DNA of 64,000 nucleotides, from NCBI RefSeq assembly GCF_018278905.1, contig NZ_CP046600.1, positions 4,216,001 to 4,280,000 on the forward strand. The letters run 5' to 3'. Source of the DNA: Mycobacterium spongiae. Its GTDB lineage: Bacteria; Actinomycetota; Actinomycetes; Mycobacteriales; Mycobacteriaceae. Positions 1 through 11,692 of this stretch are shown here, in pieces (within the stretch, counting starts at the first letter, position 1; every line of letters begins with the position of its first letter). Under the pieces are notes generated by a model that worked only from the letters and a program-made list of their open reading frames with translations, was not told where the DNA came from and made no database searches. A program made the translations under genes and the position numbers.

Positions 1-3000
1 TCCGATGCGGCCTGTTCGGCGGCGGCGTCTTCGGCGAAGTCATCGAAAATCTCGGTGAAATCCCAAGCCTGCTGCGCGATTCCACTGCCCTCGTTGTTGG
101 CAACACCCAACACACCCTGCATATCGCGAGGAAGCTGCCACATCGACAACTCACCAATATTGTTCTGATCAGCGAACGCCGCCAGCTGCACAGCATCGTC
201 CAGGGTAAAAACCTCACTCGGATTGTCATTGACTCCGATCATCGGCGTCACCCCCAGCATCGCCCACACCTGCTCACTGCTCAGCGACGGATACAACCCC
301 ATCAACTGCCCATGAGTGGCCTGCGCCGCATCAATCGCCAAGGCCCCCATGTCATACGGCGCATACGTCGGATCGAAATAGTCCATCGTCATGATGTTGA
401 CCCGCTCAATCACAACACCATTACTCTGCGCAATCTCAACAACCCGCAACCCATCAACCGTCAGACCCGTCGGCAACACCGGAAGGGTATACGACACCGT
501 CACCGGAGTACCGTTAGCGTCCCCCCACTGCTGAGCAAGAACAATCGCCTGCGACTGCGCCTCTAGGGCCGCCACATTGGACTGCATCGCCCCCTCAACA
601 TCGAAATCGATGTCATAGATCTCATAGGTCGTCATCACCTGCTGATACTGCAGCGCAAGCTCAGCAGGACTGACATCGTTCGCCGCGGCATACACAGCCA
701 GATCCGTACCAGCCGCCCCACCAAAGGAAATGGTCCCGTTGATGCCCGCGCTATCCATGTTGGCAAGCTGATTATCAATAAACCAACTATGACTGCCACC
801 GCTGACGTCGTACTCCGGATAGCCACCCCACGCCGCCTCGCCCCCAGGAGTAGCAGTGATAAAGGCCAGCGTGACATCATCGACCCCCGCCTGCGCCACC
901 GCAGCAAAGTCAAACCCCTCATTCGACGGCCACAACGTAATATCGACATACGGCGAGAACCTCCCATACACCACCCCGTCACCCGTGCCGGTCCCGCCGC
1001 CGCTGCCGCCACTGCCGCCAGTCCCGGTGCCGCCGCCGGTTGACTGTCCGTTGACCAGGACGTTCGTCGGTTCCGAGTAGGCGCCGGTGAGCAGGGCTTG
1101 GAAGCCAACCACGACCGACTCGCCCGGCTGAATCGTTTGCGTCCAAGACTCCGGGGTGATCGTGTAGTGCGTACCATCCTGGGCGAGCTGACCACTCCAC
1201 AGATTGGTGATGGATTGGCCTGCGGCCAAATCGAATTCCACCTGCCAACCAGTCACCGCGGTCTCACCGGCATTCGAGATCGTGAAATCAGCCACGAAGC
1301 CGTTATCCCATTGCGACGTCACCGCATACGTCGCGGCCACCGCGCTATCACCAGCGCCACCATCACCCGTCCCCCCATCACCAGCGCCACCATCACCGGT
1401 ACCCCCATCCCCAGCGCCACCATCACCGGTACCCCCATCCCCAGCGCCACCATCACCCGTGCCACCGTCACCGGTACCGCCGTCACCCGTGCCACCATCA
1501 CCCGTGCCGCCATCACCGGTTGCGTCGGCCTGTTCGGCGGCGGCGTCTTCGGCGAAGTCATCGAAAATCTCGGTGAAATCCCAAGCCTGCTGCACGATTC
1601 CACTGCCCTCGTTGTTGGCAACACCCAACACACCCTGCATATCGCGAGGAAGCTGCCACATCGACAACTCACCAATATTGTTCTGATCAGCGAACGCCGC
1701 CAGCTGCACAGCATCGTCCAGGGTAAAAACCTCACTCGGATTGTCATTGACTCCGATCATCGGCGTCACCCCCAGCATCGCCCACACCTGCTCACTGCTC
1801 AGCGACGGATACAACCCCATCAACTGCCCATGAGTGGCCTGCGCCGCATCAATCGCCAAGGCCCCCATGTCATACGGCGCATACGTCGGATCGAAATAGT
1901 CCATCGTCATGATGTTGACCCGCTCAATCACAACACCATTACTCTGCGCAATCTCAACAACCCGCAACCCATCAACCGTCAGACCCGTCGGCAACACCGG
2001 AAGGGTATACGACACCGTCACCGGAGTACCGTTAGCGTCCCCCCACTGCTGAGCAAGAACAATCGCCTGCGACTGCGCCTCTAGGGCCGCCACATTGGAC
2101 TGCATCGCCCCCTCAACATCGAAATCGATGTCATAGATCTCATAGGTCGTCATCACCTGCTGATACTGCAGCGCAAGCTCAGCAGGACTGACATCGTTCG
2201 CCGCGGCATACACAGCCAGATCCGTACCAGCCGCCCCACCAAAGGAAATGGTCCCGTTGATGCCCGCGCTATCCATGTTGGCAAGCTGATTATCAATAAA
2301 CCAACTATGACTGCCACCGCTGACGTCGTACTCCGGATAGCCACCCCACGCCGCCTCGCCCCCAGGAGTAGCAGTGATAAAGGCCAGCGTGACATCATCG
2401 ACCCCCGCCTGCGCCACCGCAGCAAAGTCAAACCCCTCATTCGACGGCCACAACGTAATATCGACATACGGCGAGAACCTCCCATACACCACCCCGTCAC
2501 CCGTGCCGGTCCCGCCGCCGCTGCCGCCACTGCCGCCAGTCCCGGTGCCGCCGCCAGTCCCGGTGCCGCCGCCAGTCCCGGTGCCGCCACCGGTCCCGGT
2601 GCTGCCGCCGGTTGACTGTCCGTTGACCAGGACGTTCGTCGGTTCCGAGTAGGCGCCGGTGAGCAGGGCTTGGAAGCCAACCACGACCGACTCGCCCGGC
2701 TGAATCGTTTGCGTCCAAGACTCCGGGGTGATCGTGTAGTGCGTACCATCCTGGGCGAGCTGACCACTCCACAGATTGGTGATGGATTGGCCTGCGGCCA
2801 AATCGAATTCCACCTGCCAACCAGTCACCGCGGTCTCACCGGCATTCGAGATCGTGAAATCAGCCACGAAGCCGTTATCCCATTGCGACGTCACCGCATA
2901 CGTCGCGGCCACCGCGCTATCACCAGCGCCACCATCACCCGTCCCCCCATCACCAGCGCCACCATCACCGGTACCCCCATCACCAGCGCCCCCATCACCG

Positions 3001-4030
3001 GCACCCCCATCACCGGTACCCCCGTCACCGGTACCCCCATCACCGGTTGCGTCGGCCTGTTCGGCGGCGGCGTCTTCGGCGAAGTCATCGAAAATCTCGG
3101 TGAAATCCCAAGCCTGCTGCACGATTCCACTGCCCTCGTTGTTGGCAACACCCAACACACCCTGCATATCGCGAGGAAGCTGCCACATCGACAACTCACC
3201 AATATTGTTCTGATCAGCGAACGCCGCCAGCTGCACAGCATCGTCCAGGGTAAAAACCTCACTCGGATTGTCATTGACTCCGATCATCGGCGTCACCCCC
3301 AGCATCGCCCACACCTGCTCACTGCTCAGCGACGGATACAACCCCATCAACTGCCCATGAGTGGCCTGCGCCGCATCAATCGCCAAGGCCCCCATGTCAT
3401 ACGGCGCATACGTCGGATCGAAATAGTCCATCGTCATGATGTTGACCCGCTCAATCACAACACCATTACTCTGCGCAATCTCAACAACCCGCAACCCATC
3501 AACCGTCAGACCCGTCGGCAACACCGGAAGGGTATACGACACCGTCACCGGAGTACCGTTAGCGTCCCCCCACTGCTGAGCAAGAACAATCGCCTGCGAC
3601 TGCGCCTCTAGGGCCGCCACATTGGACTGCATCGCCCCCTCAACATCGAAATCGATGTCATAGATCTCATAGGTCGTCATCACCTGCTGATACTGCAGCG
3701 CAAGCTCAGCAGGACTGACATCGTTCGCCGCGGCATACACAGCCAGATCCGTACCAGCCGCCCCACCAAAGGAAATGGTCCCGTTGATGCCCGCGCTATC
3801 CATGTTGGCAAGCTGATTATCAATAAACCAACTATGACTGCCACCGCTGACGTCGTACTCCGGATAGCCACCCCACGCCGCCTCGCCCCCAGGAGTAGCA
3901 GTGATAAAGGCCAGCGTGACATCATCGACCCCCGCCTGCGCCACCGCAGCAAAGTCAAACCCCTCATTCGACGGCCACAACGTAATATCGACATACGGCG
4001 AGAACCTCCCATACACCACCCCGTCACCAC
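1..4030 (-). repeat. Tandem ~1.52 kb coding repeats (GH18-linker-CBM2-linker units)
   Basis: The same GH18 start sequence recurs at 961, 2479 and 4006, giving periods of 1518 and 1527 bp, both multiples of three. The GH18 and CBM2 parts look almost identical between copies at the nucleotide level. The linkers (GDGG-type at about 2920-3050 and 1350-1525; GTGG-type at about 2500-2615 and 985-1048) differ in length. The pattern suggests recent amplification or gene conversion. Confidence 0.9.
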
Positions 4031-4556
4031 CGCCACCCGTGCCGCCACTCGCGGTGCTGGCTGAGCTAACGAGTCCCGGATTAGCCGCCGCGCCGCTGGC
4101 GATCTGCCCGCCGCTCGTGCCCTCAACCAGCTGAGCGGAATTGGCACCGTTGACGCTCTCCACAGCCGCTACCCCAGACAGTTCGACATTGCCCGCCGAC
4201 GGACCCCCGGCGCCGCCGATGACCGCATTGATCATTCCTTGCGCCGCTCGCGCCGCGCTCTGCAATGGCGATGCGTTCGTCGCATCGACTAGCGCATACG
4301 CCTGCGCACTTGCGGCCAACGTCTGCGCAAACCGGGCATGAAACGCCGCCACTTGGGCGCTGACGGCTTGATACTCCCCTGCGTGCGCATCGAACCATGC
4401 CACGATGGCCGCCGACACCTCGTCGATGCCCATCGCCGCCAACCCCGCCGTCCGAGTCGCCGCCACCGCATTGGCAATGCTCAGCTGTGATCGCAACGCC
4501 TCCAACTCCGTCGCCGCCGCGGCCACCATCTGCGCATTCGCGATCACAAAGGACAT
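1..4556 (-). CDS. PE-domain protein with repeated GH18 chitinase-like and CBM2 modules (partial, 3' end outside window)
   Basis: The reading frame is open from an ATG at 4556 to the left edge, about 1518 codons, with no stop seen. A strong GGAGGAG ribosome site lies about 8 nt upstream. Order by residue: PE domain 1-95 with an ESX-type YxxxD motif (YALVD); linker; GH18 about 180-490; Gly-Asp-rich linker; CBM2 about 545-642; Gly-Thr linker; GH18 about 688-1000; linker; CBM2 about 1070-1165; linker; a third GH18 to the edge. Each GH18 carries the catalytic DxDxE signature (IDFDVEG), a downstream MDYFD motif and a late LSMW tryptophan, as in Streptomyces/Bacillus-type GH18 chitinases. CBM2 modules show SQWDNGF and TGWQVEF, typical of chitin/cellulose binding. 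The inferred role is a secreted, multivalent chitinase or other beta-glycan hydrolase. No activity is proven, and the first acidic position of the DxxDxDxE consensus is Tyr. Confidence 0.9.
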
Positions 4557-6046
4557 ATCTCACTCCTCCGGCCGCAGTGATACGACCGTGATATCGACGA
4601 AAAGTGTTCGAGCACTATTTTGACCGTCAATTTTCCTCAATAGCAAGACACTGGGAGATTTTCTTGATCATTCGAATATTCGAACGGCAAGATCTGGCTG
4701 TTTCGCCATGACGGCGGCTGCCGCCGAAGCAATAAGGCTCCGAATAGCGCGTGCTCGCATTCGTCGACAACGTCGCCCCATCACAGCGGTCTATAATCTT
4801 TTACACAGTAACTTCTAAGGTGCGGCACAGGGCCGGGACAGCCAAGCGAACAGCGGTCCTCAATAAAGCTTATTCAACGAAACCGCATGTGAAGGCCGAT
4901 AAAGAGCGCTTCTAAAGATCTTTTTGCCCGGACCATTGGCTATGGACAAATATAATCAGAGAAACATTGTTCTCAGTTTTGCGGGACGATATGCCTGCAC
5001 CCCACCCCGGCCGCAGTGGAAAAGTCTTGGGCTACTAAAATGTCCAATACAGCGCCGTAAAGGCATCGGCGTGATGCTCCTATTACCTACCGTAGCCCCC
5101 CGGGTATTCGCAAATGCGATCAGATGCTCCGTTGCACGAAATTCCCGGCGCCGCTACGCTTCCGGGCCGAGCCTGCGGCGACACGGATGCGCAGCAGAAG
5201 CCTACCGCGGTGTGACGCTGGTGAAATACGTCGAGAAATGAGTCGAAACTATTGTTATCTTCCTGGTCAGATTTCGGCGTGCCGGCATAGCGAGTGTGGC
5301 CCGTCGTGTGAGGACGCATCGGCGGCACCTGCCGATCGCGGCCAGGCGACGACGAAGCCGCGTCGCACCGGACGATTCTGGGATTACCAAGATTCGATTT
5401 CTTCACACCTGGCCGAGCGAAGCCGCAGTCCATAATCACGCCGTATTTCCGCCTGGTCACGCGCCACCAGCGAAGCGGGGTGCTGGCGGTGGACATCAGC
5501 GCATCGTCAGTGCTGCAGTCGCCGAAGAACTCGGCGATCGGAGAGCTCCATCCCGTTGTCGCGAGAGCAGCGCGGCCTGTGCGCTGCCCCAGCACCCACC
5601 GGGCCTCGCACCGTTGCGACTACGACAGCGGCCTGGGACACGTCGGCAAATCTCACTCGCAGGGGTAGCACGGAGTGCGAGCCACCCTTGCTGGCGGTAA
5701 TCCTGCGACGGCTCTGGGCATGCTTGGGCTATCGACTTTTTCATTACTACGTTGGTTCACTAGGGATTACAGCTAGACAGCCGCTGATGAGGACTGGCCG
5801 TCCATGCCGACTCCGGTTGTCTGCGGCCGCGACATCCAGGACACCCGAGAGCCTCACAGTGAGATGACGAGTTGGCAAACAAGTCGACAACGGTTCTCGG
5901 TTCCTTCTTTCGGCTTGACCCGACGAGGATGATTGCCAATACTGCAGTAGCACTTGCTATTTCGGCCTTGCTCGCGATCCATTCTTGCCGATCAAAAGCC
6001 AAACAGGCCAACGCCGGCCAAGTCCGTAGGCTACATCGAGACAAGA
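4557..6046. other. Gene-poor 1.49 kb interval
   Basis: I see no convincing coding sequence here. The first ~400 bp is visibly more AT-rich than the neighbouring genes, holds the PE-GH18 leader, and contains an isolated TATAAT (4792-4797, + strand) with no obvious gene to drive. Short open frames in 4900-5950 overlap on both strands and match no family I recognise. No insertion-sequence ends or tRNA were spotted. Confidence 0.5.
4671..4684. promoter_or_regulatory. Perfect 14-bp palindrome upstream of the PE-GH18 gene
   Basis: TTCGAATATTCGAA is a perfect palindrome 115 bp upstream of the start codon. A second short palindrome, TTGACCGTCAA (4620-4630), lies between it and the gene and could hold a -35 element. 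It is a possible operator; no regulator is identified. Confidence 0.4.
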
Positions 6047-7168
6047 ATGACTGACACGACGACGAACGCCAGAACCACATCTCCGGGAAACGGCGATGTC
6101 GATGCCCGGCGCGTCACGCGTTTCGCAACCGAAGTCGCGGCGGCGATGTCGGACGAGTTGGCCGCACGCTGGATCGCCATCGCGCGACGATACGGGGCGG
6201 CCATCGGCTGCGGCACCGAAGGCGCGTTCGTCTGCGACGTCGCGACCCTCGATGGCGGCGAGTACGTTCGCCCGCTTCTGGCGGCCGCCAGTTATGCGGG
6301 CTGCGGGGGAACCGACTACGACGACATCACCACTCTGGCGATCGCGTTGCAGTTCCTGCACGTAGGTCTTTGCGCCCACAACGATCTCATCGACGATGAG
6401 GACATCCGTCATGGGCGCCCGAACATGCTGGCTCGAGCCAGACAGGATCCACTGATCAACGCGCGGCCGGCGCACACCGCTCAACGGCATGTCACTGCGC
6501 GCAGCGTACTGGCTGGCGACTTGGCGGTCGGCGCTGCGTTCACTGCTGTGACCGAGATGACGATCAGTCCCCGCCTCATGGCCGCGATCACCAAACAGTT
6601 CGCCCTCGCCTTGGAGACCAGTGTGCTTGGCGAATTCGCGGATACTTATGCCGAACTCCTCGATGTCGATACCACCGATACCGTGGTCAGGGCCGAACGC
6701 AAGACCGCCAGTTCCAGCACAGTTCTCCCGCTAGTCTCGGGCGCCATCTGCGCGGGCCAGACCGACGAGGCGTCGCTGCACCAGCTCACTGGCGTCGGCC
6801 TGGCGCTGGGACTCAGCTATCAGCTGGCCGACGACCTCTTGTCTGTTGTCGGCGATTCCGCGCTCAGCGGCAAGCCATTATTCAGCAACATCCGAGCCGG
6901 CAAGCACACCGAGCTCGTTCGCCAGGCGCTCCGCCGAGCAGATCGGCACCAACGTTCGATTATCGAGCGGTGCCTCGGCAACGATGTCGACGGCACCGCC
7001 GGACCCATGCTGGCCGCAATCTTCCACGACACCGGAGCCGTTGGCGCAGTCCGCTCAATGATCGACCAGTGCACCGAGCGCATCGCGGCATCACGGCTGC
7101 AATTCGCTCCGGGACTCAGGGACCACCTGGTGCACATCGCTCACGCGCTCGCTCGCCGGGTCGCCTAG
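6047..7168 (+). CDS. Polyprenyl (GGPP/FPP-type) diphosphate synthase
   Basis: A 373-aa trans-prenyltransferase that condenses IPP onto allylic diphosphates. The first Asp-rich motif reads HNDLIDDED followed by IRHGRPN, and the second reads YQLADDLLSVVGD. Both sit in the expected places, so the fold is clear. The first motif has Asn where DDxxD enzymes have the first Asp, while other acidic residues remain. The ATG at 6047 was chosen because the family alignment begins after it; the frame stays open upstream to 5954 without homology, and the ribosome site is weak. It lies 96 bp before an IPP isomerase on the same strand, a supply cassette for terpenoids or carotenoids. Chain length cannot be read from the sequence, and no terpene cyclase or phytoene synthase is in the window. 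Confidence 0.85.
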   Translation: MTDTTTNARTTSPGNGDVDARRVTRFATEVAAAMSDELAARWIAIARRYGAAIGCGTEGAFVCDVATLDGGEYVRPLLAAASYAGCGGTDYDDITTLAIALQFLHVGLCAHNDLIDDEDIRHGRPNMLARARQDPLINARPAHTAQRHVTARSVLAGDLAVGAAFTAVTEMTISPRLMAAITKQFALALETSVLGEFADTYAELLDVDTTDTVVRAERKTASSSTVLPLVSGAICAGQTDEASLHQLTGVGLALGLSYQLADDLLSVVGDSALSGKPLFSNIRAGKHTELVRQALRRADRHQRSIIERCLGNDVDGTAGPMLAAIFHDTGAVGAVRSMIDQCTERIAASRLQFAPGLRDHLVHIAHALARRVA

Positions 7169-7264
7169 CCTGAACTGCACGGTCAACTGTGAGAACATTG
7201 AGCCACAGCCCGCACGTGGCGGTCCGCTCGTGTTGGCCGCCTCCATCACCGCAAGGACGACTTG

Positions 7265-7915
7265 GTGACCGACAGCGTCCAACCACGCGACCGATCGATC
7301 TCTGTCGAGCAGGTTGTCTTGCTCGATGAACGCGGCGGCGCCGTAGGTGTAGCCGACAAGGCCACCGTTCATACTTCTGATACCCCACTGCACCTAGCCT
7401 TTTCCAGCTACGTGTTCGATGCCGAGGATCGCGTGCTGATCACCCAGCGGGCCGCCGCGAAACGAACCTGGCCAGGCGTGTGGACCAACAGTTGTTGCGG
7501 ACACCCCCTGCCTGGTGAATCGTTGCCCGACGCTATACGACGTCGGCTGGCCGATGAACTCAGGTTGCGTGTCGATCGGGTGGATCTGATCCTGCCGGAG
7601 TTCCGCTACCGAGCCACCATGGCCGACGGCATCGTAGAAAACGAGATCTGCCCGGTGTACAGAGTGCACAGCGACCAACAACCGCGGCCGAACTCCGACG
7701 AGGTTGACGCGGTCCGCTGGGTCCCCTGGGAACAGTTCGTCTCCGAAGCCAGCGCCGGACACATCACGCCACTGTCACCGTGGTGTCGTAGTCAACTGGA
7801 CCTGCTGACCGCATTGGGACCTCGCCCAGCCTGGTGGCGCGTTGCCGACGACAGTCGGCTGCCGATGGCCGCCCGGCCGAACACCCCGCGCACAGGGGAA
7901 ACGGGAAACCTCTAA
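7265..7915 (+). CDS. idi: Isopentenyl-diphosphate delta-isomerase, type I
   Basis: A 216-aa Nudix-fold enzyme interconverting IPP and DMAPP. The catalytic Cys is in TNSCCGHP and the catalytic Glu in ENEICPVY. Metal-binding His residues are in [13 protein letters not shown] and CGHP, matching the E. coli/M. tuberculosis enzymes. The GTG at 7265 follows an AAGGA-like ribosome site; a TTG one codon earlier is the alternative. It follows the prenyl synthase gene and ends 13 bp from the convergent fbiC stop. In H37Rv idi sits elsewhere (Rv1745c), so its position beside fbiC is a local feature of this genome. Confidence 0.93.
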
Positions 7916-7928
7916 GACCGAGGTGTCC

Positions 7929-10514
7929 TCAGCCCAGACACTCCGGGACCGCAAGTGGCGCATAGGTAGTGGTGCGCTGCCGAGCGGGCCGCCCGATCCC
8001 CTCGGCGATCGCGGCCAGTTCGGCAACTGTCTTGGACGATCCGTGTTCGGAACCTGCCATGCGCGAAATGGTCTCCTCCATCAGTGTTCCGCCGAGGTCG
8101 TCGGCACCGCCGTTGAGCATCACCCGAGTGCGCTCGATACCCAGCTTCACCCAACTGGTCTGTATATGGGAGATGCGGCCATGCAACATGATCCGCGCCA
8201 GCGCGTGCACAGCCCTGTTATCGCGATGTGTGGGCCCGGGCCGTGCCGCGCCCGCCAGATACAGCGGCGAATTCTGGTGCACGAACGGCAACGGCACGAA
8301 CTCGGTGAAGCCACCGGTACGGTCCTGGATATCACGGAGCACGTTGAGGTGCGCGACCCAGTGCCGTGGGCTGTCGACATGTCCGTACATCATCGTTGAC
8401 GAGGACGGCAAGCCCACCTCGTGGGCGGTCGTCACGATCTCGATCCACAGCGACGTCGGTAGCTTGCCCTTGGTGAGCACCCAGCGCACCTCGTCGTCCA
8501 GTATTTCGGCGGCTGTGCCGGGAATACTGCCTAGCCCGGCCTCGCGCAGACTGATCAGCCACTCGCGAATGCTCAGCCCGCTCTTGGTGACACCGTTGGC
8601 GATCTCCATCGGGGAAAACGCGTGAACATGGATCGACGGCACCCGCGCTTTAACGGCGCGGACGAGATCGGCGTAGCCGGTGACCGGGAGCTCTGGGTCA
8701 ATGCCGCCCTGCATGCACACTTCGGTGGCGCCGGCGACATGAGCCTCCCAGGCTCGGTCGGCGACCTCGGTAACCGACAGTGAGTAGGCGTCCGCGTCTC
8801 CTTTGCGCTGGGCGAACGCGCAGAATCGGCACCCGGTATAGCAGATATTGGTGAAGTTGATATTTCGGTTGACCACGTAGGTCACGTCGTCTCCCACGGC
8901 ATCGGCACGCAACGAATCAGCCAGTGCAACAACGGCTTCCAATGCGGGGCCGGCGGCGGTAGCCAACGCCAGATACTCCTTGTCGGCACAGCCGCCCGGA
9001 GCCCGCTCAACCGACCGCAGCGCGGCGAGCACATCGGTGTCAATACGCTCAGGCGCTCGCGCAGCCAGTTCGTGCACATGCGCCCGGATCGACTCCCAAT
9101 CACCGAAGGCGCTGTCCAGGTCGCTACGAGCCTCGGTATTGCGACCTTGGGTGTCGATCGCCGCGTTGAGATCCACTCGCCCCGAGGACTCCACGTCGTC
9201 GGGCTCCTGCCAGGGCATGCCCACCGGATTGATGTCGCGGGCAAAGCCAGTTGCCGGATCAGCCAGCGCCACAACGTGTCCGCGCACCCGCGGATCGATC
9301 CACGCGGCCCCAGCCTGCACGTACTTCGGCTGGGCCGTCAGCCGCTGCACCAGGTCGTAGCCGCCCTCCGCCGTCACGGCGGCCAGCTCATCCAATGCGG
9401 GCCAGGGCCTCTCAGGATTGACATGGTCGGGGGTCAGCGGCGAGACACCACCCCAGTCGTCGACACCGGCGCCAATCAACGCCAGGCATTCGTCACGAGA
9501 CACAAGGTTGGGCGGCGCCTGGATGCGCATCCCCGGCCCGAGCACCAGACGCGCCACCGCGACGGTGGCCACATAGTCCTCGAACCCGGCGTCGGGCACG
9601 TTAGCCATCGCCGTGTGTTCCTTGGCCCGGAAGTTTTGCACGATCACTTCCTGGATGTGCCCGAACTCCTTGTGCGACTTGCGAATCGCGTGCAGGGTCT
9701 CGGCACGTTCGTATAGAGTTTCACCGATGCCGACCAACAGTCCGGTAGTAAACGGAATGGACAACCGCCCGGCGTCAGTCAGGACGCGCAGACGCACCGC
9801 CGGGTCCTTGTCCGGGCTGCCGAAATGCGCGAGCCCCTTTGATTCGAACAGTCTTCGCGATGTGGTCTCGAGCATCATTCCCATCGAGGGCGCCACCGGT
9901 TTGAGTCGCGCCATCTCCGACCAGCTCATCACACCCGGGTTCAAGTGCGGCAACAGACCGGTTTCCTCGAGTACTCGGATCGCCATCGCCCGCACGTAGG
10001 ACAGCGTCGAATCGTAGCCTCGTTCGCCCAGCCACTCGCGTGCCTCCGCCCATCGCTGCTCGGGGCGGTCGCCCAGGGTGAATAGCGCTTCCTTGCAACC
10101 AAGTTCACCCCCGCGACGGGCCACGTCGAGGATCTCGTCGGGCTCCAGGTACATCCCGGCGCCTTGGGCGCGTAGCTTGCCCGGCACAGTGACAAACGTG
10201 CAGTAGTGGCAGGTATCGCGGCACAGATGGGTGACCGGAATGAACACTTTGCGCGAATAGCTGATCGGCAACCGGCCCTGAGGACCTTGCCGTCCGGCCG
10301 ACTTCAATCCCGCGTCGCGCACTCGCGCCGCACTCGCGGTCAGGTCGGCCAGGTCGGCGCCGCGGGCGGCCATCGCAACAGCGGCCTCATCGATGTTTAG
10401 CGCGACACCGTTTCGAGCCCGCCGCAGTACCCGTCGCAACGCTGACGGAGCGATCTTGGGCCTAACGATGGGGCTAGGCAGAGCTGTGGGCTCCCGGTCC
10501 GGAGTCAATGACAC
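7929..10514 (-). CDS. fbiC: FO synthase FbiC (CofG/CofH fusion, coenzyme F420 biosynthesis)
   Basis: An 861-aa cytosolic bifunctional radical-SAM enzyme that makes the deazaflavin FO from tyrosine and 5-amino-6-ribitylaminouracil. The N-terminal CofG-like half carries CRDTCHYC and the C-terminal CofH-like half CYTGCRFC, the two CxxxCxxC 4Fe-4S motifs. The sequence is close to M. tuberculosis FbiC (Rv1173) throughout. The GTG at 10514 was chosen because it gives the family length; the frame is open to 11000, but that extension is low-complexity and overlaps the divergent PE gene. Expected to be constitutive housekeeping, feeding F420 to enzymes such as the Rv1155-like protein in this window. 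Confidence 0.96.
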
Positions 10515-10716
10515 GTTGGTGTAACTTCCCAGCGATCCGATTTCATCCGCGCGTCCCGACGTGCCCGACTCTGGGCAACCGTGAGGACAACCTTGGTGCC
10601 ATACCCGCCACAGTAGCGCCAGACCACGGCCGATACGCGATCGAGGTTGCTGCACCATTGATTGGCCCGACTTGCAAGCGGCTGACCACCGATCGCGATA
10701 CCATCCGTTTTGAGAG

Positions 10717-10766
10717 CCTTGAAGACCCTTGACGACCCTTGAAGGCCCTTGTAGACCCTTGAATCG
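10717..10766. repeat. Five-copy 10-bp tandem repeat between fbiC and PE12
   Basis: The core CCTTG recurs exactly every 10 bp at 10717, 10727, 10737, 10747 and 10757, with unit consensus CCTTGAAGAC. It lies in the divergent intergenic region, about 200 bp upstream of fbiC and 60-110 bp upstream of the PE gene. One unit per helical turn would put all copies on one face of the DNA. Confidence 0.75.
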
Positions 10767-10825
10767 GAGGAAGAGGCGCAAGCACCGCGGCAGTCGCGGG
10801 GCTGCGCGGCGGGAAGCGGTGTGAG

Positions 10826-11692
10826 ATGTCGTTCTTGCAAGCGGTGCCGGAGGCGCTGACGGCAGCGGCGTCGGACGTTGCCGGCATCGGAGCCAACCTG
10901 AATGCCGCCAATGCGGCCGCAGCACCGACAACCGCACCCCTGGCAGCGGCCGCCGATGAGGTCTCGACGCAGGTCGCCGCGCTGTTTTCCGCACATGCAC
11001 GCGGATATCAGCAGCTCAGCGCGCAGATGGCGGGGTTTCACGACCAGTTTGTGCTAGCCCTTAAAGGCGGCGCGAGCTCGTATGCGGCCGCCGAGGCCAA
11101 TGCCGCAGAGACTCTGATGAACGCGGTGAACGCTCCCGCCGAGAAGTTGCTCGGGCACCCATTGATCGGCAGCGGCGTTGGTGCGTTGGTGCCAAACGCA
11201 ATAGCCAACGTCAACAACGCCTTCCTCGGCGGGACCGCGACGGCGGAAAGCGCCGCCGCCAGCGCGGGCGCACTGGCGCTGCAACCCGCCGGCGGGGCCA
11301 GCGGTCTGGCCGCCACCACCGCGTTGCTGCAACCTATGGCGAACGCGCTGGCCGCGTCCGGATCCATCGGCATGGCCATTGAGAATCTCTACCTGGCAGT
11401 CCAGCCGTGGGTGGAGTACGGGTTTCTGCTCGCCTCGTACGCGGTGGGTTGGCTGCCCTTTGGCTTCCTGTTGGGTCCCCAGATCATCTTCCTCTACGAC
11501 CTCTTTCAGCCCATGGTTCAGAGTGCGCTGTTCAACACGATCGACTGGCTCGAAGGAACCATCACCTTCGCCCAGGGGCTGGAAAACTTCTGGGCGGCCA
11601 CGACCGCGTCAATCAACCAATTCATCAACACCCAGATCAACTGGATCCTCAGCTTCCTCCCGCCGTTCCCACCGATCCAGAACGTTCCCTAA
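10826..11692 (+). CDS. PE12: PE family protein, PE12-like (Rv1172c)
   Basis: A 288-aa PE protein. Residues 1-95 form the PE helical hairpin, beginning [15 protein letters not shown], with the ESX secretion motif YxxxE (YAAAE) near residue 90. The remaining ~190 residues are hydrophobic with several possible membrane or surface-associated helices and end in [12 protein letters not shown]; there is no PGRS repeat. Position next to fbiC matches Rv1172c. Likely exported by an ESX system and surface-associated; function unknown. It is divergent from fbiC, with the 10-bp repeat array between them. Confidence 0.88.

Follow-up and report, generated by a model that had tools for sequence, protein, structure and literature searches.

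How does a mycobacterial PE protein come to carry chitinase-like modules in several nearly identical copies, and what could such a protein do? The question is raised by the first gene of the window analysed here, a stretch of 64,000 nucleotides of the Mycobacterium spongiae genome (assembly GCF_018278905.1, contig NZ_CP046600.1, positions 4,216,001 to 4,280,000 of the forward strand; G000:C1:4216001-4280000 in our numbering), which forms one contig of 5.58 Mb with more than 100 PE matches. This gene, on the minus strand, joins a PE domain to GH18 and CBM2 modules in the order PE, GH18, CBM2, GH18, CBM2, GH18, the modules being separated by Gly-rich linkers that differ in length. Its most unusual feature is the near identity of the GH18 and CBM2 copies in DNA, which reflects a recent in-frame multiplication of catalytic modules. 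The gene is real and intact and of an already described kind, here in an unusual, recently multiplied form, and as judged from its sequence the protein is probably a mycobacterial PE-chitinase that is secreted and has several catalytic domains.

Gene structure and near identity of the copies

Over the 960 bp of the GH18 cores, copies 1 and 2 show no difference and copy 3 differs from each of them at one position, and over 312 bp the CBM2 copies do not differ at all. If the borders of the GH18 cores are set a little wider, the counts rise to 2, 3 and 3 positions. Exact direct repeats of 992, 961 and 907 bp are found at offsets of 1527, 1518 and 3045, and these repeats are not due to chance. Synonymous divergence (dS) does not exceed 0.009 among the copies of the array, compared with 1.81 to the gene of genome G160, the latter value being near saturation. 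The modules and motifs of the gene are as follows (window coordinates, strand):

3..4556 (-), PE-GH18-CBM2-GH18-CBM2-GH18 gene, with the stop codon TAA at window coordinates -3 to -1
4563..4569 (-), Shine-Dalgarno-like GGAGGAG, 6 bases upstream of the ATG, from the sequence
4272..4556 (-), PE domain, residues 1-95, Pfam PF00934
4284..4298 (-), YxxxD motif YALVD, residues 87-91, at the end of the PE domain, from the sequence
3054..4013 (-), GH18 copy 1, residues 182-501, DxDxE at 302
2916..3053 (-), linker, residues 502-547, 15/30-bp repeats
2601..2915 (-), CBM2 copy 1, residues 548-652
2487..2600 (-), Gly/Thr/Ser linker, residues 653-690, 18-bp repeats
1527..2486 (-), GH18 copy 2, residues 691-1010, DxDxE at 811
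1344..1526 (-), second linker after GH18, longer than the first, residues 1011-1071
1029..1343 (-), CBM2 copy 2, residues 1072-1176
969..1028 (-), short Gly-rich linker, residues 1177-1196
9..968 (-), GH18 copy 3, residues 1197-1516, DxDxE at 1317

The sequence-only reading had described a PE domain fused in one frame to at least three GH18 and two CBM2 modules, each GH18 copy keeping its DxDxE, and had looked to the adjacent sequence for the 3' end. All of this is borne out: the frame is open throughout with no frameshift between PE and GH18 and holds 1518 codons inside the window, the complete gene has exactly three GH18 and two CBM2 modules, and every DxDxE is in place. The near identity of the copies at the DNA level is not mentioned in that reading. 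The window edge cuts the last Asp codon, and four bases beyond it (one of the Asp codon plus TAA) complete the end GAC-TAA of a protein of 1519 amino acids, 154 kDa and isoelectric point 4.05. A frameshifted or pseudogene status is ruled out by the single open frame and the GGAGGAG before the ATG.

Repeats identical over about 1 kb are hard to assemble, and since the copies are judged here from the assembly alone, one might suspect that a single GH18-CBM2 unit was multiplied artificially in sequencing or assembly. Against this, the genome is one contig, the repeat offsets (1527 vs 1518 bp) and the linker lengths differ, copy 3 has a change of its own, and the last copy of a second array elsewhere in the genome carries 86-90 base differences from the others of that array. 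Because the offsets and linkers differ and the second array is more diverged, an artefact is not favoured and seems scarcely credible to us. The three copies would instead come from a very recent in-frame duplication of the GH18-CBM2 unit, or have been equalised by gene conversion.

Two side observations concern the composition of the gene. The linkers are short and by eye contain TGTGG runs, and the guanine-plus-cytosine content is 57.7% in the GH18 copies vs 65.3% in the PE part and 64.4% in the window; this difference may indicate that the GH18 module came from a foreign source.

Family, fold and residues of the modules

In a Pfam search with the whole protein, which agrees with the domains named from the sequence alone, PE scores 84.7 bits (cut-off 22), CBM_2 (PF00553) 186.6 bits in two stretches (cut-off 24) and GH18 (PF00704) 50.9 bits in three stretches (cut-off 29.6). 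The GH18 match passes only with the copies summed, and what supports the family call is instead the homology to chitinases of solved structure, together with the predicted fold. By sequence, a GH18 copy matches the solved chitinases 9buf (E 3.7e-54) and 2dsk (E 2.8e-35), and the structure predicted for one copy (mean predicted local confidence score, pLDDT, 93) has the same two entries as its top fold matches, structural neighbours being taken from the best 1000 Foldseek chains. The modelled fold matches that of the Pyrococcus ChiA-type chitinases. As a separate observation, two proteins from the chytrid fungi Phlyctochytrium and Terramyces (P0022, P0023) show 37% identity over 20% of the query, with Pfam GH18 present.

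The DxDxE is kept in all 67 aligned GH18 rows and the Tyr in 66. The longer signature of processive GH18 enzymes (DxxDxDxE, SxGGW) is absent: a Tyr stands at the position of the extra Asp (domain residue 120), and residues 83-87 read SFGGA. Since both the extra Asp and the Trp of SxGGW are missing, we do not file the GH18 modules of the window gene as processive.

The CBM2 module aligns with those of ChiC (2rtt, E 2.9e-15) and Cellulomonas Cex (1exg, E 6.4e-13) with the Trp residues in register. Three of the four Trp columns are Trp in all 67 CBM2 rows and the fourth holds Trp in 48 and Tyr in 17; the assignment of particular Trp residues to the binding face is our assumption. A CBM2-bearing chitinase, MaChi1, is described in the text available to us as binding cellulose and chitin alike (PMC11204758).

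Export by the type VII route

The PE domain would carry the protein out through a type VII secretion system, most likely ESX-5. According to the accessible text of one report, PE domains are needed for ESX secretion, YxxxD/E is named as a secretion signal motif, LipY and PecA are ESX-5 substrates, and PecA cuts off the PE part at the cell surface (PMC6819658). YxxxD/E is present in 27 of the 33 PE domains examined, including 26 of the 31 from PE-GH18 genes, and the other six lack the Tyr. There are six EccB loci in the M. spongiae genome, and the one at 2717155 has short PE genes downstream, at 2726460 and 2728804, a trait that we take to mark the ESX-5 locus. One PF20729 (PecA-like) domain is found in the genome, in an open reading frame (ORF) of 565 amino acids that also shows a PE match. 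The PE part of the window protein might be cut off at the cell surface by a PecA-like protease encoded elsewhere in the genome.

In the CBM2-CBM2-GH18 proteins of genomes G221, G218, G073, G090 and G157 (loci L061, L066, L085, L094 and L096), which belong to the same GH18 family as the window gene, a Sec-like signal peptide, recognised by eye, replaces PE. As the same GH18 family has both a PE form and a Sec-like form, the enzyme appears to be exported by two routes, and the replacement is in itself a natural swap of the export signal.

Locus and relatives in the genus

The window gene is flanked by an fbiC-like gene on one side and by a 110-amino-acid ORF and a fadH-like gene on the other, which we take to correspond to fbiC/Rv1173, Rv1174c/TB8.4 (the 110-amino-acid ORF) and fadH. 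The genes on the fbiC side are:

5954-7168 (+), polyprenyl synthetase gene, between the PE-GH18 gene and the fbiC-like gene
7262-7915 (+), NUDIX (IPP isomerase-like) gene, between the PE-GH18 gene and the fbiC-like gene
7929..11000 (-), fbiC-like radical SAM/CofH gene, flanking the same locus in G160, G236 and G104

Among the genomes with a stretch fetched at this locus, G160, G236 and G104 also have a PE-GH18 gene between the same two flanking genes, and in these three the polyprenyl synthetase and NUDIX genes were not detected between the PE-GH18 and fbiC-like genes. The layout is PE-CBM2-CBM2-GH18 in G160 and identical in G236, and G104 (L086) has two full and one split GH18 in a gene spread over two frames. 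In the latter the three CBM2 are identical in DNA, yet the two full GH18 are only 58% identical in protein.

In the tree, the three GH18 copies of the window group together (100/100) and have as their sister the copy found at the same locus in G160 (100/98); at this locus the copy of G236 and the last one of G104 belong to a different clade. A single clade of all GH18 at the fbiC-fadH locus was rejected by the approximately unbiased (AU) test (p-AU 1e-6; the group comprised six rows, namely the three copies of the window, one each from G160 and G236, and of the G104 copies only the last). This grouping and the one tested below were named after the tree had been seen, so that the p-AU values are guides only, and one row of the tree, G018_L107, has a very long branch. 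The nearest relative of the window PE is the one in G104 (65%), and those of the window CBM2 are in G160 and G236 (79%). As the copies at one locus fall into different clades and the nearest relatives of PE and CBM2 differ, this suggests that modules have been exchanged between PE-GH18 genes.

Counting the own genome, a GH18 match was found at E <= 1e-10 in 58 of 248 genomes of the genus and at E <= 1e-70 in 28 of 396; at most eight (248-genome search) and five (396-genome search) candidates were scored per genome, and the GH18 copy counts are lower bounds. From 43 other genomes, 60 stretches were taken and their open frames scanned with profiles built for this analysis. PE and GH18 stand in one frame in 20 of the 25 examined genomes with 47-74% matches (the GH18 of G104 being partial). 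The exceptions are G221, G090 and G157, which showed the Sec form, fragments or no visible PE, G133, with PE in another, overlapping frame, and G023, at a contig end. No PE was seen in the GH18 frame in the 19 stretches L097-L115 (41-46% matches), and both of the two scanned with Pfam have Calx-beta domains, one also GH5 and CBM2. Some relatives look broken, namely G028 L082 and G133 L083, which are in pieces, and the split G104 L086. Two GH18 in one frame occur elsewhere in G063, G023, G104 and the M. simulans protein P0001; the pairs within the G063, G023 and G104 genes share 50-58% protein identity and are therefore not recent copies. In G063 and G023 the two members are 50-51% identical and belong to different clades.

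Other multiplied arrays in the same genome

A second gene of M. spongiae, L022:3999-10343 (+), encodes 2114 amino acids with the order PE-CBM2-GH18-GH18-CBM2-GH18-CBM2-GH18. DNA identity is 98.6-99.4% among its first three GH18 and about 90.5-91% between these and the fourth. Directly after it, at L022:10417-10965 (+), lie decayed GH18 pieces, a trace of copy gain and loss. All four GH18 of this gene have Asn in place of the Asp of MxMDY, which is Asp in 63 of the 67 rows, and the change may alter the activity of this paralogue. A single clade of the seven own GH18 copies was rejected (p-AU 1e-9), and hence the arrays at the two loci were multiplied separately.

A third gene, L023:2351-6220 (-), has PE, three CBM2 and three GH12, the GH12 copies being 96.3, 87.5 and 87.9% identical in DNA. 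A search for GH12 across 248 genomes of the genus gave matches in 27, with three matches in M. spongiae only, all in one frame; the other 26 genomes have one or two matches each, and the pairs are far apart or on different contigs. Beside this gene an ORF resembles, by eye, isoprenyl diphosphate synthases (L023:6735-7706). We take the region to be the site of the short PE9/PE10/celA2a/celA2b genes in M. tuberculosis, and these could be the broken remains of a gene of the PE-CBM2-GH12 type. At L024:3830-4297 (+), beside a frame with a PE match, lies a lone CBM2 protein with a signal-peptide-like start (by eye), which presumably resembles Rv1987.

The triplication in the window might be a neutral, short-lived duplication with no functional value, as the dS within the array is so low, the best match to the window GH18 among the 395 other genomes of the genus is only 74% identical and there is a decayed GH18 piece behind the second array. 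However, catalytic modules were multiplied separately at the two GH18 loci and also at the GH12 locus, all in open frames, and we consider a neutral origin possible but doubtful. If the multiplication does have value, the extra copies would raise the enzyme dose and the avidity per exported molecule. With similar reserve, and with the odds rather against it, we offer the idea that M. spongiae, through repeated copying of catalytic-plus-binding units in PE genes (three loci, with GH18 x3, GH18 x4 plus a decayed piece, and GH12 x3), makes glycanases with several catalytic modules on one chain for export by the type VII route, the copies being kept alike by recombination and the number of active modules being quickly changeable. 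If this were true, PE arrays would be a mycobacterial counterpart of the cellulosome, reached via repeat expansion and not via scaffold docking. The identical repeats also allow copy-number change of exported enzymes to be measured directly in isolates.

Proposed function

GH18 enzymes work by substrate-assisted retaining hydrolysis. After export, a released or surface-held chain would carry three identical, probably non-processive GH18 and two CBM2 on one flexible polymer. The CBM2 would hold it on insoluble chitin or on chitin mixed with cellulose, and the GH18 would cleave the chitin with the Glu of DxDxE (domain Glu127) as acid/base. Chitin is our best guess for the substrate and a probable one, as far as homology can tell.

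The flexible Gly-rich linkers and identical repeats would also suit an avidity device, and inactive chi-lectins have the same fold (e.g. YKL-39, titled a pseudo-chitinase), so that the modules could be imagined as a non-catalytic adhesin or surface antigen with repeats for valency or antigen variation. The retention of DxDxE and of the Tyr speaks against this, as does the ratio of nonsynonymous to synonymous divergence (dN/dS), which is below 0.5 in 13 of 13 between-gene GH18 pairs (0.03 to 0.48; below 0.22 in nine) and fits a conserved function of GH18. We regard the adhesin as very improbable. Somewhat less remote, yet still improbable, is that GH18 acts on other N-acetylglucosamine polymers (host N-glycans or peptidoglycan), CBM2 being merely a surface anchor: the family includes endo-beta-N-acetylglucosaminidases, one of which (4ac1) is among the fold neighbours, and the relatives in M. 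simulans and M. basiliense are annotated as bifunctional chitinase/lysozyme. Among solved structures, however, chitinases come closest in both sequence and fold, and the CBM2 chitinase mentioned above is described as binding cellulose and chitin.

A chitinase thus remains the preferred reading, and the following points weigh against it or against its parts. One GH18 copy taken alone scores 21.8 bits, under the Pfam cut-off that the single copy from G160 passes with 36 bits. The Asp of MxMDY is replaced by Asn in 4 of the 67 GH18 rows, all from the second gene. The two highest dN/dS values belong to a window copy against the second gene (0.392/0.814) and to two G063 copies (0.011/0.023), and several of the between-gene dS values are near saturation. 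The YxxxD/E Tyr is absent from 5 of the 31 PE-GH18 genes, which have Phe instead, and from the own PE-GH12 gene. A profile search of the genome did not find GH20 or LPMO10; the same kind of search with Pfam GH18 also found nothing, although seven GH18 copies exist, and hence these negatives are weak. As neither was found, a full chitin-eating pathway is not seen, and feeding on chitin is less sure than chitin as the substrate. A simple feeding role is also at odds with the finding, in the available part of one report, that two of the three chitinase genes of M. ulcerans are lower in chitin medium (PMC6468629). The protein might also serve other ends, such as to loosen the walls of fungi, arthropods or amoebae or to attach to surfaces of chitin.

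Slow-growing mycobacteria have many PE proteins, few of them with an enzyme assigned, and one with intact chitinase modules offers a clean test of type VII export by a simple fluorescent assay. A PE-chitinase also bears on the better growth of M. ulcerans with chitin, as reported in the text accessible to us (PMC5928104, PMC6468629).

Comparison with known systems

A bioinformatic study of 2016 described PE proteins with a chitinase domain resembling 2DSK in M. marinum, M. liflandii, M. ulcerans, M. gordonae, M. gastri and M. sp. 012931 (PMC4758615), which was the only work joining ESX-5 with GH18 found in the open-licence literature. As far as its accessible text goes, these proteins have, like the window gene, PE and a GH18 modelled on 2DSK with DxDxE, which places the window gene among them, and one of them, WP_036414736.1, has a CBD joined to GH18 as here; unlike the window gene, no run of identical GH18-CBM2 units is described in that text. 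Among the matches listed from the open-licence literature, we found no published account of PE-GH18 genes with identical copies in tandem. The M. basiliense protein P0002, a "putative bifunctional chitinase/lysozyme precursor" (taken as G160 locus L056), has a GH18 that is 74% identical and the order PE-CBM2-CBM2-GH18, with a single GH18 where the window gene has three. The M. simulans "putative bifunctional chitinase/lysozyme" P0001, of 1152 amino acids, has PE, two CBM2 and two GH18 in one protein.

Outside the genus, the active domain 2 of Pyrococcus furiosus ChiA (2dsk, 3a4w, 3a4x) shares 35% identity over the structural alignment and is archaeal and not a PE protein. Chitinase 1 of Streptomyces venezuelae (9buf) is a close GH18 match whose solved structure covers the hydrolase domain only. 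ChiW of Paenibacillus sp. FPU-7 (5gzu), at 13% identity, is related by fold only and reportedly uses a different export system. As described in the accessible part of its report, SsChi18C of Streptomyces sp. F-3 joins CBM2 to GH18 with DxDxE and without the longer motif, like the window gene, and differs from it in being a secreted Streptomyces protein with one catalytic domain and no PE (PMC6545677). LipY and PecA, as far as the available text describes them, have PE, a linker and a C-terminal enzyme, as in the window gene, and are ESX-5 substrates found at the surface; their enzymes are a lipase and an aspartic protease, whereas that of the window gene is a glycosidase (PMC6819658).

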